DNA of 64,000 nucleotides. It comes from Devosia sp. SD17-2 (GTDB lineage Bacteria; Pseudomonadota; Alphaproteobacteria; Rhizobiales; Devosiaceae). Below, piece after piece: positions 35,764 to 41,479 of the stretch. Numbering within the stretch: position 1 is the first letter of the stretch; each line of letters opens with the position of its first letter. The DNA lies in NCBI RefSeq assembly GCF_029201565.1, contig NZ_CP104002.1, positions 1,133,001-1,197,000 on the forward strand. Direction: 5' to 3'. Below the pieces are notes generated by a model, which saw nothing but the letters and a program-made list of their open reading frames with translations, did no database searches and was not told the DNA's origin. Both the position numbers and the translations under genes were made by a program.

Positions 35764-36666
35764 ATGTCTATTCTCGTCAACAAAGACACCAAGATCCTCG
35801 TTCAGGGCCTGACCGGCAAGACCGGCACGTTCCACACCGAACAGGCGCTGGCCTATTACGGCACCCAGATGGTTGCCGGCATTCACCCCAAGAAGGGTGG
35901 CGAAACCTGGACTGGCGCTGCCGGCAAAAGCCTGCCGATCTATGCTACGGTTGCCGAAGCCCGCGACGCTACCGGTGCTGACGCATCGGTGATCTATGTG
36001 CCGCCTGCCGGTGCTGCCGACGCGATCATCGAAGCCATTGAAGCCGAGATCCCGTTCATCACCTGCATCACCGAAGGCATTCCGGTGGCCGACATGGTGC
36101 GCGTCAAGGCCCGCCTCGAACGCTCCAATTCGCGCCTCCTCGGCCCGAACTGCCCCGGTATCCTCACCCCGGAAGAGTGCAAGATCGGCATCATGCCGGG
36201 CTCGATCTTCCGCAAGGGTTCGGTCGGTATCGTCTCGCGCTCGGGCACGCTGACCTATGAGGCCGTGTTCCAGACCACCAATGAGGGCCTTGGCCAGACC
36301 ACGGCTGTTGGCATCGGCGGCGATCCGGTGAAGGGCACCGAGTTCATCGACGTGCTCGAGATGTTCCTCGCCGACGACGCGACCGAGTCGATCATCATGA
36401 TCGGCGAAATCGGTGGCGCGGCTGAAGAAGAAGCGGCGCAGTTCCTGATCGACGAAGCCAAGAAGGGCCGCAAGAAGCCCATGGCCGGCTTTATCGCCGG
36501 GCGCACCGCACCCAAGGGGCGCACCATGGGCCATGCCGGCGCTGTCGTTTCCGGCGGCAAGGGCGATGCGGAATCCAAGATCGCGGCCATGGAAGCGGCC
36601 GGGATCACGGTGTCGCCGTCGCCCGCACGACTCGGCAAGACCCTCGTGGACGTGCTCAAGGGTTAA
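35764..36666 (+). CDS. sucD: Succinate-CoA ligase subunit alpha
   Basis: A 300-residue CoA-binding, phosphohistidine-bearing subunit. [16 protein letters not shown] marks the CoA fold, [20 protein letters not shown] the central region, and the active-site His lies in [13 protein letters not shown]. It is followed by the long leader before sucA rather than by close coupling. Confidence 0.98.
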
Positions 36667-37005
36667 CCGACCAGCGCTTTTGTCTGAAAGTATACATCTC
36701 GACCAATAAGGTCAGTAGAGTTGTCTTTTACCGCCGACGGAAGTGCACGACTTATATAACGGATCCCTTCACGGGATCGTCACTGGGCGCGGCGAAATTC
36801 GCCGCGCTAACTGCCCAGAGGGATGCTAGCCAAGATTAGGCCAAGGTCTCTCGATATCTGAGCCACGACCCTGCTCAGGGGTCGTTCACTTAACAGGATA
36901 CTAAGGATAAGCGGTCAGTATCCGATCGTAATCAAGGGACCGCATTGAGGCCGGCTCGCCGGCTCGTTTCAAAGGATGGCGGGGCGGCGCCTCGCACAAA
37001 AAGCG
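36667..37005 (+). promoter_or_regulatory. Long hairpin-rich leader upstream of sucA (candidate structured RNA)
   Basis: This 339-nt gap in an otherwise tight operon contains four strong inverted repeats. GATCCC-N5-GGGATC spans 36762-36778. A two-part stem spans 36783-36818 (outer CTGGGC/GCCCAG, inner GCGGCG/CGCCGC). CGACCC-N7-GGGTCG spans 36866-36884. Two interleaved pairings follow: GGATAC 36896-36901 with GTATCC 36918-36923, and GCGGTC 36911-36916 with GACCGC 36938-36943. The interleaving allows a pseudoknot or two alternative folds. None has a T run, so these are not simple terminators. An internal sucA promoter is also likely here. No known riboswitch class was recognised. Confidence 0.55.
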
Positions 37006-40000
37006 ATGACACGACAGGAAAAGAACGACGCGTTCTTGCTGACCTCGTTCCTCTATGGGGGGAACGCTGACTACATCGAACAACTTTACTCCCGTTACAA
37101 GTCTGACCCGAGCAGTGTCGACGAGACCTGGTCGAGCTTCTTTTCCCGTCTGGACGACAGCCAGGACGTCGCCGTCCGGAATGCTGAAGGTCCCAGCTGG
37201 GGTCGCAAGGATTGGCCGCAGGCGGCCGGCGGCGACCTGATAGCTGCGCTTGACGGCAATTGGGGCGAGATCGCGGTCAAGGCCGAAAAGGCCACGACCA
37301 AGAAGGCCGTCGCCGAAGGCAAGCCTTCCGCCAGCGCCGAAGACGTGCTGCAGGCGACCCGGGATTCGATCCGTGCCATCATGATGATCCGCGCCTATCG
37401 CATGCGCGGCCATCTGCATGCCGATCTTGATCCGCTCAAGCTCAAGGCCGACGAACCGGCCCCCGAGCTTGATCCACTCAGCTACGGCTTCACCGAGGCC
37501 GACTACAGCCGCAAGATCTTCATCGACAATTATCTGGGCCTCGAATACGCCACCATCCCAGAGATGCTGGCCATCCTGCAGCGCACCTATTGCGGCACGC
37601 TCGGGATCGAATTCATGCATATCTCCGATCCGGAAGAGAAGCAGTGGATTCAGGAGCGCATCGAGGGTCCGGACAAGGAAATCACCTTCACCGCCGAAGG
37701 CAAGAAGGCGATCCTCAACAAGCTGATCGAGGCCGAAGGCTTCGAAAAGTTCCTCGACGTCAAGTATACCGGCACCAAGCGCTTCGGCCTTGATGGCGGC
37801 GAAGCCACTATTCCGGCGCTCGAGCAGATCATCAAGCGCGGCGGTGCCCTTGGCATCAAGGATATCGTGCTGGGCATGGCCCACCGCGGCCGTCTCAACG
37901 TTCTGACCCAGGTCATGGCCAAGCCGCATCGCGCGCTGTTCCATGAATTCAAGGGCGGCGCCTTCTACCCCGACGACGTCGAGGGTTCGGGCGACGTGAA
38001 GTACCATCTTGGCGCGTCGTCGGACCGCGAGTTCGACAACAACAAGGTGCACCTGTCGCTGACGGCCAATCCGTCTCACCTCGAAATCGTTGATCCCGTG
38101 GTGCTCGGCAAGTCGCGCGCCAAGCAGGACCAGCACATCGCTCCCGATGGCAAGCTCGTCAACATCGCCCAGGATGGCAAGCCGGACCGGTCCATGGTCC
38201 TGCCCCTGATGATCCATGGCGACGCGGCCTTTGCCGGCCAGGGTGTGATTGCCGAATGTCTGGGGCTCTCCGGCCTCAAGGGTCACCGCACGGGTGGGTC
38301 GATCCACTTCGTCATCAACAACCAGATCGGCTTTACCACTTCGCCGATCTATTCGCGCTCCTCGCCATATCCGACCGACGTCGCCAAGATGATCGAGGCG
38401 CCGGTTCTGCATGTGAATGGCGATGATCCGGAAGCTGTCGTGTTCGCGGCGAAGGTGGCTGTCGAATACCGCCAGAAGTTCGGCAAGCCTGTCGTCATCG
38501 ACATGTTCTGCTATCGCCGCTTCGGTCACAACGAAGGCGACGAGCCCAGCTTCACCCAGCCGCTGATGTACTCCAAGATCCGGTCGCACAAGACGACCCT
38601 GGAGATCTATTCGCAAAAGCTGATCGCTGAAGGCGTGCTCTCCGAGAACGACGTCGAGCAGATGCGCGCCAATTGGAAGGCCAAGCTCGAGGCCGAATTC
38701 GAAGCCGGCCAGGACTATCGCCCGAACAAAGCCGACTGGCTCGACGGCGCCTGGAAGAGCTTCAAGCCGGCCGCCGATGAAGGCCCGCGCCGCGGTGACA
38801 CCGGTGTCGATCTCGACCGTCTGGTCGCTATCGGAACCCAGCTCACCAAGGTTCCGGCCGAGTTCAACGTCCACAAGACGGTCAAGCGCTTCCTCGACAA
38901 CCGCCTCAAGGCAATTGAGAGCGGCGAGGGCATCGACTGGGCGACGGCCGAGGCGCTGGCCTTTGGTACGCTTGTTACCGAAGGGCACCCTGTGCGCCTT
39001 TCCGGCCAGGATTCGGAACGCGGCACGTTCAGCCAGCGCCACTCGGTGCTGAATGACCAGCAGGTGGAAAACAAGACCTTCACCCCGCTGAACAATCTCA
39101 CGCCCGATCAGGCCCGCTACGAGGTCATCAACTCGATGCTCTCCGAAGAGGCGGTGCTCGGTTTCGAATACGGCTATTCGCTCGCCGATCCGCGGGCGCT
39201 GACGCTGTGGGAAGCCCAGTTCGGCGACTTCGTGAACGGTGCGCAGGTCGTCATCGACCAGTTCATCTCTTCGGGCGAGCGCAAGTGGTTCCGCATGTCG
39301 GGCCTCGTGATGCTCCTGCCGCACGGCTATGAAGGGCAGGGGCCGGAGCACTCCTCCGCGCGTCCCGAGCGCTTCCTCCAGCTCTGCGCCGAAGACAATA
39401 TGCAGGTCGCCAACTGCACGACGCCGGCCAACTACTTCCACGTGCTGCGCCGGCAGCTCAAGCGCGACTTCCGCAAGCCGCTGATCCTGATGACGCCCAA
39501 GAGCCTCTTGCGCCACAAGCGTGCGGTCTCCGGCCTCGTCGAGCTTGGTCCGGACAGTGTCTTCCATCGCCTCCTCTGGGACGATGCCGAGGCCCCCGGT
39601 CTGCCCAAGACCACTATCCGCCTCCAGCCGGACGAAAAGATCCGTCGCGTCGTCCTCTGCACCGGCAAGGTCTATTACGACCTCCTCGAAGATCGCGAGA
39701 AGAAGGGCATCGACGATGTCTATCTCCTGCGCATCGAGCAGCTCTATCCGTTCCCGGCCAAGGCGCTGCTTGACGAGCTGAGCCGCTTCCCCAATGCGGA
39801 AGTGATCTGGTGCCAGGAAGAGCCCCGCAACATGGGTGCCTGGGCCTTCATCCAGCCCTATGTGGAATGGGTGTTCGACCAGATGGGCCGTGGCCACCAG
39901 CGCGTGCGCTACTCCGGCCGTCCGGCGGCCGCTTCGCCCGCTACGGGCCGCATGAGCGTTCACCTGGAGCAGCTCCAGGCGTTCCTCGACGATGCCTTGG

Positions 40001-40008
40001 GCTCCTGA
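37006..40008 (+). CDS. sucA: 2-oxoglutarate dehydrogenase E1 component
   Basis: A 1000-residue thiamine-diphosphate-dependent decarboxylase of the 2-oxoglutarate dehydrogenase complex. The N-terminal FLLTSFLYGGNADYIEQLYS and the E1 core (MAHRGRLNVL, HLGASSDREF, FVINNQIGFTTSP, CYRRFGHNEGDEP) are clear, and the C-terminal part has VWEAQ-type LTLWEAQFGDFVNGAQ. The ATG at 37006 is chosen by family alignment (MTRQEKNDAF); an upstream ATG at 36976 has its AAAGG immediately adjacent and adds ten unusual residues. It precedes sucB. Confidence 0.97.
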   Translation: MTRQEKNDAFLLTSFLYGGNADYIEQLYSRYKSDPSSVDETWSSFFSRLDDSQDVAVRNAEGPSWGRKDWPQAAGGDLIAALDGNWGEIAVKAEKATTKKAVAEGKPSASAEDVLQATRDSIRAIMMIRAYRMRGHLHADLDPLKLKADEPAPELDPLSYGFTEADYSRKIFIDNYLGLEYATIPEMLAILQRTYCGTLGIEFMHISDPEEKQWIQERIEGPDKEITFTAEGKKAILNKLIEAEGFEKFLDVKYTGTKRFGLDGGEATIPALEQIIKRGGALGIKDIVLGMAHRGRLNVLTQVMAKPHRALFHEFKGGAFYPDDVEGSGDVKYHLGASSDREFDNNKVHLSLTANPSHLEIVDPVVLGKSRAKQDQHIAPDGKLVNIAQDGKPDRSMVLPLMIHGDAAFAGQGVIAECLGLSGLKGHRTGGSIHFVINNQIGFTTSPIYSRSSPYPTDVAKMIEAPVLHVNGDDPEAVVFAAKVAVEYRQKFGKPVVIDMFCYRRFGHNEGDEPSFTQPLMYSKIRSHKTTLEIYSQKLIAEGVLSENDVEQMRANWKAKLEAEFEAGQDYRPNKADWLDGAWKSFKPAADEGPRRGDTGVDLDRLVAIGTQLTKVPAEFNVHKTVKRFLDNRLKAIESGEGIDWATAEALAFGTLVTEGHPVRLSGQDSERGTFSQRHSVLNDQQVENKTFTPLNNLTPDQARYEVINSMLSEEAVLGFEYGYSLADPRALTLWEAQFGDFVNGAQVVIDQFISSGERKWFRMSGLVMLLPHGYEGQGPEHSSARPERFLQLCAEDNMQVANCTTPANYFHVLRRQLKRDFRKPLILMTPKSLLRHKRAVSGLVELGPDSVFHRLLWDDAEAPGLPKTTIRLQPDEKIRRVVLCTGKVYYDLLEDREKKGIDDVYLLRIEQLYPFPAKALLDELSRFPNAEVIWCQEEPRNMGAWAFIQPYVEWVFDQMGRGHQRVRYSGRPAAASPATGRMSVHLEQLQAFLDDALGS

Positions 40009-41382: not shown

Positions 41383-41479
41383 GTTCACCGATTGGTGTTT
41401 AACGTCACGGCAAACGTTAGCAGTCTGTTAGCAGATTGTGACGCTAAGGCTGTGTCTGGATTATTTTTCGAGGTGTGGT

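Follow-up and report, generated by a model that had tools for sequence, protein, structure and literature searches.

The Rfam sucA, sucA-II and sucC RNA motifs are structured RNAs associated with TCA-cycle genes. The region described here, the gap between sucD and sucA of Devosia sp. SD17-2, lies in a window of 64,000 nt (the whole stretch of DNA that was analysed), and unlike those motifs the window has no match to Rfam 15 at the gathering score. Two other described systems share features with it. One is the split ribosome-binding site of phage T4, where, as given in passages of one report (PMC3014915), a hairpin cuts the spacing from 22 to 5 nt at gene 38 and from 27 to 11 nt at gene 25. The other is the CtrA-activated promoter of Alphaproteobacteria. 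Passages of the CtrA literature give the consensus as TTAA-N7-TTAA (PMC11264516) or TTAA-N7-TTAAC (PMC7200025), describe a TTAA-N7-CTAA site bound by CtrA at Caulobacter hemE (PMC11264516), describe a Caulobacter transcript start, activated by CtrA, for which the full motif begins at -39, name rcdA and flagellar genes just before the CtrA motif classes (both PMC4287350), and report the motif in Methylosinus (PMC12403871).

The sucA locus resembles both. As at T4 genes 25 and 38, the Shine-Dalgarno of sucA is too distant in sequence and an intervening hairpin would shorten the spacing, here from 29 to 12 nt. Unlike the T4 genes, sucA is a chromosomal TCA-cycle gene, and its hairpin holds its place while the sequence changes across the family and, more loosely, across the class. 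As in CtrA-activated promoters, a candidate TTAA-N7-TTAA-like box would replace the -35 element, 38-40 nt before the predicted start, and its TTAA-N7-CTAA form is the variant of hemE. It departs from those promoters in the second half-site (CTAA in the window and CAAA in other species, for the consensus TTAA), in a -10 that lies within the inverted repeat S2, and in the metabolic nature of the gene. The putative split site and the probable CtrA-type promoter are known kinds of element, and their combination and place are new. Among excerpts of the open-licence PMC literature returned by a few search terms, none reports a recurring chromosomal hairpin-split site or a CtrA-type promoter on 2-oxoglutarate dehydrogenase. 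A recurring chromosomal site of this kind would allow the T4 mechanism to be examined in a gene of core metabolism, and if 2-oxoglutarate dehydrogenase does have a CtrA-type promoter, the TCA cycle would be linked to cell-cycle control.

Results and Discussion

The sucD-sucA gap and the sucA start

The genes of the locus are ordered mdh, sucC, sucD, gap, sucA and sucB, with an lpd-like gene further on. The gap extends from the sucD stop (36666) to the sucA ATG, and its features are collected in Table 1. The surroundings of ATG 37006 are invariant in the Devosia alignment, and ATG 36976 itself is not. Since the ATG at 36976 is absent from some species and elsewhere stands 30, 31, 32 or 33 nt before the sucA ATG, so that all frames occur, we placed the sucA start at 37006. 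A leader peptide or upstream start at 36976 was rejected on the same observations.

Table 1. Features of the sucD-sucA region, in positions of the window.
Feature	Position	Strand	Basis
sucD (succinate--CoA ligase alpha)	35764..36666	+	ORF; NCBIfam NF004230 above cut-off
5' half of gap, two strong hairpins (inverted repeats GATCCC/GGGATC at 36762-36778 and GCGCGGCGAA/TTCGCCGCGC at 36787-36807)	36667..36855	+	conserved in nearest genomes only
P1 hairpin, covarying	36865..36885 (arms 36865-36871 / 36879-36885)	+	fitted alignment and A1
CtrA-type box TTAA-N7-CTAA (TTAACAGGATACTAA), candidate	36890..36904	+	sole TTAAC-N6-YWAA match in window; fixed offset across family
S1, first helix of proposed pseudoknot	36896..36923 (36896-36902 / 36917-36923)	+	clade-limited pairing
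S2, loop holds most of -10	36911..36943 (36911-36916 / 36938-36943)	+	A3, A4
-10-like hexamer CAGTAT	36916..36921	+	26 bp from first base of box; conserved as YAnnnT
Predicted transcript start	36928..36930	+	7-9 nt past -10; box start 38-40 nt before
P3 hairpin, covarying, variable loop	36949..36964 (36949-36955 / 36958-36964)	+	fitted alignment and A1
Shine-Dalgarno AAAGGA	36971..36976	+	AAGGA invariant in A2, 47 Devosia sequences
P4 hairpin between Shine-Dalgarno and AUG	36979..36995 (36979-36985 / 36989-36995)	+	pairing, fold z and SD-distance tests
sucA (2-oxoglutarate dehydrogenase E1)	37006..40008	+	NCBIfam NF006914 above cut-off; start ATG 37006 from conservation
sucA codons 2-10; possible hairpin P5 (37021-37027 / 37031-37037) overlaps	37009..37035	+	synonymous-difference count

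The inverted repeats that a sequence-only reading had pointed out in this gap are real and lie where it placed them. The + strand of the gap gave a better fold than all of 100 shuffles (z -3.52), whereas the fold of the - strand was weaker (z -1.86, with 5 of 100 shuffles equally good). That reading had also held that the hairpins are not plain terminators, in agreement with a search for intrinsic terminators (a hairpin followed by a T run), which found none in the gap and a single site within 36300-37300, at 37118-37135 inside sucA. Compared with Rfam, the gap had one weak hit, to the unrelated Rubella_3 (E 3.4). A dispersed repeat was rejected as the origin of the gap, which over its length matches only itself in its own genome (single copy).

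Conservation and distribution

Devosia species conserve the 3' half of the gap, from about 36859 to 37006, but not the 5' half. When 61 genomes of the genus were searched with the DNA, most matching congeners aligned only at about query 193-340 or 223-340, and a near full-length match was found only in G016, of the same species, and in G058 (88%). Of 75 genomes of the genus, 72 gave a match to a covariance model built from 28 Devosia leaders, with E 4.3e-13 or better; among the three that it missed, G051 has a different leader (L165), and the contigs of G090 and G054 begin inside sucA. Fifteen of 61 other genomes of the family, from two genera, carry the element (E 3.6e-7 to 0.055), always before sucA, and three more gave chance-level matches only (E 0.4-0.84). 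Weak matches with E 0.4-0.99 fell in three further genera of the family and at second places in some genomes. The search of 297 genomes of the order returned nothing outside the family better than E 0.05 (best 0.0504), and there is no credible spread of the element beyond the family among the families sampled. A 30-base pattern of the element, run against contigs of one genome per species, occurred in 38 stretches, 34 of them from Devosia. A sucA start follows 36 of the 38; L143 ends before sucA and has sucD upstream, and the available DNA of L109, which is an Oscillospiraceae MAG, lacks sucA.

Four alignments are referred to below. A1, made from 28 of the best DNA matches, was aligned freely with MAFFT, and A2 contains 47 Devosia sequences. 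A3 (Devosia and other genera, 66 distinct sequences) and A4 (Devosia, 63 distinct sequences) were built by fitting sequences to the structure of the model, which biases them in its favour. Other hand-picked sets contained 71 loci and 70 loci. Sequences within Devosia are not independent, and combined p-values are therefore too small.

A putative split ribosome-binding site in front of sucA

The best-supported RNA part of the gap consists of the Shine-Dalgarno, P4 and the sucA AUG. The Shine-Dalgarno is 29 nt from the AUG, and P4 occupies 17 of these and leaves 12. In the fitted alignment, which leans towards the model structure, 98.6% of the P4 cells are paired, two-sided changes occur at 2 of the 7 pairs and one-sided changes at 2 others, and the free alignment A1 has two-sided changes at 1 of the 7.

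The position of P4 was also compared among sucA starts. The mean fold z at -40..-6, against mononucleotide shuffles, was -3.09 for Devosia (n=14), -1.78 for the family set (n=37, two Devosia genomes, L161 and L162, included), -1.04 for the order set (n=44) and -1.31 for the class set (n=26), where the last two sets are made up mainly of the closest sucA relatives of the query, at 30 loci per search, and the class-set starts are uncertain because they were taken as the nearest in-frame ATG or GTG. For the sucD and sucB starts of the same loci, the mean ranged from -0.55 to 0.23. None of 49 crude gene calls in the window had a z of -3 or below, a background only, in which sucA was given another start. 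When a split site was defined as a Shine-Dalgarno match at least 20 nt from the start, the two being separated by a hairpin of 4 bp or more, it was present at sucA in 13/14 Devosia, 23/37 family, 13/44 order and 7/26 class loci, compared with 0/27, 1/37, 1/72 and 1/53 for sucD and sucB together. The putative split site before sucA hence recurs across the family and, in part, across Alphaproteobacteria, and hardly occurs before sucD or sucB. It is not universal, because the best Shine-Dalgarno match lies within 15 nt of sucA in 21 of the 44 order starts; the same holds for 6 of the 26 class starts, and 6 starts in each set have no match. At a locus from one family of the order (L226), a GGAGG before sucA is able to pair with CCTCC in a hairpin and a second, close GGAGGG follows the hairpin, a layout that is sequestering rather than bridging.

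The coding start of sucA is frozen in Devosia, with a synonymous difference of 0.000 at codons 2-10 and 0.338 at codons 23-100 among 53 distinct sequences (one of 54 was dropped by the filter). Part of the pairing in the overlapping hairpin P5 could come from an AAY...TTY coding bias, and we do not claim P5 as real.

A candidate CtrA-type promoter upstream of the split site

Between P1 and S2 lies a strand that hardly varies within Devosia (A2) and that contains the candidate box, the one match to TTAAC-N6-YWAA in the window, where 0.09 were expected and 8 of 100 shuffles held one. When family sequences were anchored on TTAAC, most genera had YWAA at positions 12-15 and YAnnnT at positions 27-32, though the stems change. 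The composite pattern TTAAC-N6-YWAA-N11-YAnnnT fitted better than in shuffled gaps (p<0.05) in 18 of 23 family sequences and 10 of 13 genera, in a hand-picked set (5 Devosia, 5 of genus g13 and 3 of g23) for which the fit is partly circular because the pattern was drawn from the same family sequences. Five of the 23 have no promoter fit, and in L172 the fit sits elsewhere, at -189. For other families of the order, to which the circularity does not apply, 2 of 29 sequences reached p<0.05, no more than chance.

The composite pattern was also counted genome-wide. The own genome contains 7 sites, compared with 0 for a reversed control, and 31 Devosia genomes contain 128, compared with 28. The sucA site itself accounts for 26 of the 128, leaving 102 against the 28 of the control. 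The six other sites of the own genome adjoin genes for FlgB-like, RcdA, PAS-GGDEF, sigma-54 response regulator, Crp-type and DUF2336 proteins, and the open frames there begin at +58 to +81 relative to the box, except for that of RcdA, which begins at +219. RcdA scored above its NCBIfam cut-off; the FlgB-like protein scored below (136.7 vs 142) and has no Pfam match. From this layout, 36890-36921 is probably a CtrA-type promoter, with CtrA as the presumed binder, and another OmpR-family regulator could bind the box instead.

The sequence-only reading, which took the region for a possible leader of sucA, had counted a position wholly upstream of the sucA transcript start against itself. The interleaved stretch overlaps the probable promoter and so may lie upstream of that start; P3 and P4 lie 3' of the predicted start.

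The palindrome TTAGCA-N3-TGCTAA was considered as the site of another factor and rejected, as a genome search with it mainly gave a different dispersed repeat. Separately, many Devosia gaps (e.g., L041 and L045) were seen by eye to have a conserved GCGACC-AATGTC-GGTCGC block about 80-130 nt upstream of the TTAAC box, which is degenerate in the window (36699-36724). The block resembles the SciP half-site GCGAC given in passages of PMC4287350, but is further out.

Hairpins P1, P3 and S2

P1 and P3 covary strongly. In the fitted alignment, which leans towards the model structure, two-sided changes occur at 7 of 7 pairs of each hairpin, with 96.8% of the P1 cells paired, and in the free alignment A1 they occur at 5 of 7 pairs of P1 and 6 of 7 of P3. 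The covariation totals of the fitted alignments were reached by none of 500 shuffles, and versions of the structure slid along the alignment dropped to 25-47% of cells paired.

The support for S2 is more modest. In A4, 96.8% of its cells are paired and two-sided changes occur at 3 of 6 pairs, each in 2 sequences; in A3 they occur at 4 of 6 pairs, one of which, of the U-A to G-C type, is found in 10 sequences; both alignments lean towards the model structure. The free alignment A1 has two-sided changes at no pair of either S1 or S2. In L286 and L287, as read by eye, the arms of S2 are swapped for ACCAT/ATGGT while the box and a -10 are kept. With the 3' side alone shuffled, S2 was better than chance (p<0.05) in 11 of 45 sequences, hand-picked from 97 distinct leaders without near-duplicates, other families, or L165, L172, L179, L182, L184 and L188, in which the box or gap is unclear. 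By the same test S2 was not detected in L168, L170, L171, L175, L177 and L180 (p>0.3), all of which keep the box. In Devosia and its near relatives, then, S2 probably does form. The conserved structured RNA that had been suspected before sucA is supported by covariation, with strong compensatory changes in P1 and P3 and modest ones in S2 and P4.

A proposed composite control region and its alternatives

Our preferred explanation, held with moderate confidence, is that the gap is a composite control region that combines an internal CtrA-type promoter, a split ribosome-binding site and hairpins of the read-through RNA. In the proposed arrangement, 36890-36921 would consist of a -10 and, where a -35 would otherwise stand, a site for an OmpR-family regulator, and a separate sucA-sucB transcript would start near 36928-36930. 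Its short leader would carry P3 and then the split site, i.e., the Shine-Dalgarno (36971-36976), P4 and the AUG (37006). Folded P4 would bring the spacing from 29 to 12 nt and so make the distant Shine-Dalgarno usable, and we propose that the stability of P4 thereby sets SucA output. P1 and S2 could fold only when transcription from mdh-sucCD reads through the gap, and in such RNA they may protect the 3' end of the mdh-sucCD mRNA or limit read-through into sucA. The conservation, the covariation, the fixed promoter spacing and the place of P4 between Shine-Dalgarno and AUG come from comparison of genomes, whereas we infer that CtrA binds, where transcription starts, how P4 affects translation and any role that P1 and S2 may have. 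Some observations fit the composite region less well. S2 covaries to some degree, yet the promoter model needs no S2, which counts against it, and the frozen codons 2-10 are explained only loosely.

The covariation could instead mean that the gap is a single lineage-specific cis-regulatory RNA, a riboswitch or a protein-bound leader made up of P1, the TTAAC...CUAAGG strand, S2, P3 and P4. This RNA would be transcribed in one piece from sucCD, with the conserved strand as its core and P4 or the Shine-Dalgarno as its output. We regard it as possible but unlikely. The changes in P1 and P3 and, more modestly, in S2, the S2 pairing that survives arm replacement in L286 and L287, the near-invariant strand in Devosia, and the place before sucA of all 15 credible other-genus matches and of 36 of the 38 pattern matches would all suit such an RNA, and read-through is plausible because the gap is only about 130-180 nt in many other genomes of the family. 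However, the near-invariant strand is laid out as a CtrA-type promoter that is also found at flagellar and cell-cycle genes, S2 is undetected in several lineages that keep the box, and the RNA has no Rfam match and, in the 297 genomes of the order, nothing below E 0.05 beyond the family. The sequence-only reading was correct in taking the gap to be important and structured. Its suggestion of metabolite sensing fares worse, with no match in the Rfam search and a near-invariant block that a promoter explains as well as an aptamer does, and nothing points to a ligand for the sucA leader. The pseudoknot that it proposed is likewise not upheld, as described below.

A different extension starts from the recurrence of the split site. 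An ancient alphaproteobacterial split site at sucA might act as a switch, in which a ligand, temperature or a protein (the 2-oxoglutarate dehydrogenase complex itself being one candidate) would modulate P4 folding together with the frozen codons, and which in Devosia and its family would have been set under a CtrA-type promoter. We consider this quite unlikely; if it were true, the promoter would tie TCA-cycle flux to the cell cycle.

It is also conceivable, although decidedly improbable, that the hairpins only mark the 3' end of the mdh-sucCD mRNA, as an exonuclease block or a Rho-dependent end, and that sucA is expressed from elsewhere and the gap is without regulation. Downstream of sucD stands P1, which is stable and covaries, and the gap has no intrinsic terminator, as this explanation would have it, but the box with its -10, the split ribosome site and the frozen coding start of sucA are left unexplained by it.

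The interleaved stems

S1 and S2, the two interleaved stems, lie at the coordinates given for them earlier, and their geometry suits an H-type pseudoknot, with an 8-nt loop (36903-36910) and no gap between the stems. Both stems are perfect in the clade that contains the window. Among 63 distinct Devosia sequences, however, all 7 pairs of S1 are formed in 27, 4 pairs in another 27 and other numbers in 9, so that S1 is incomplete in 36. In A3, which leans towards the model structure, 75.8% of the S1 cells are paired, and three of the seven pairs are unpaired in 21, 25 and 36 of the 66 distinct rows. Slight covariation above shuffles was seen there (3 two-sided-change cells vs 0.3, with 0 of 500 shuffles as high), but the covariation score (0.060 vs 0.045) was equally high for versions of S1 slid by -1 and -2 columns. 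From these pairing counts, covariation and shuffle tests, S1 belongs to one clade and the pseudoknot does not hold generally, and a pseudoknot of S1 and S2, or an alternation of the two stems, is very unlikely as an explanation of the gap.

Other observations in these genomes

A second, diverged sucA-like gene is present in the Devosia genome G003 (G003:C5:820-3687, 57% identity). A dispersed 15-mer, YTAACAGTCTGCTAA, with similar flanks that form an imperfect palindrome, has 23 exact copies in the own genome (G000) among the matches listed. In the window it is found at 41417-41431 on the - strand, and one copy with a mismatch lies 3' of sucB.
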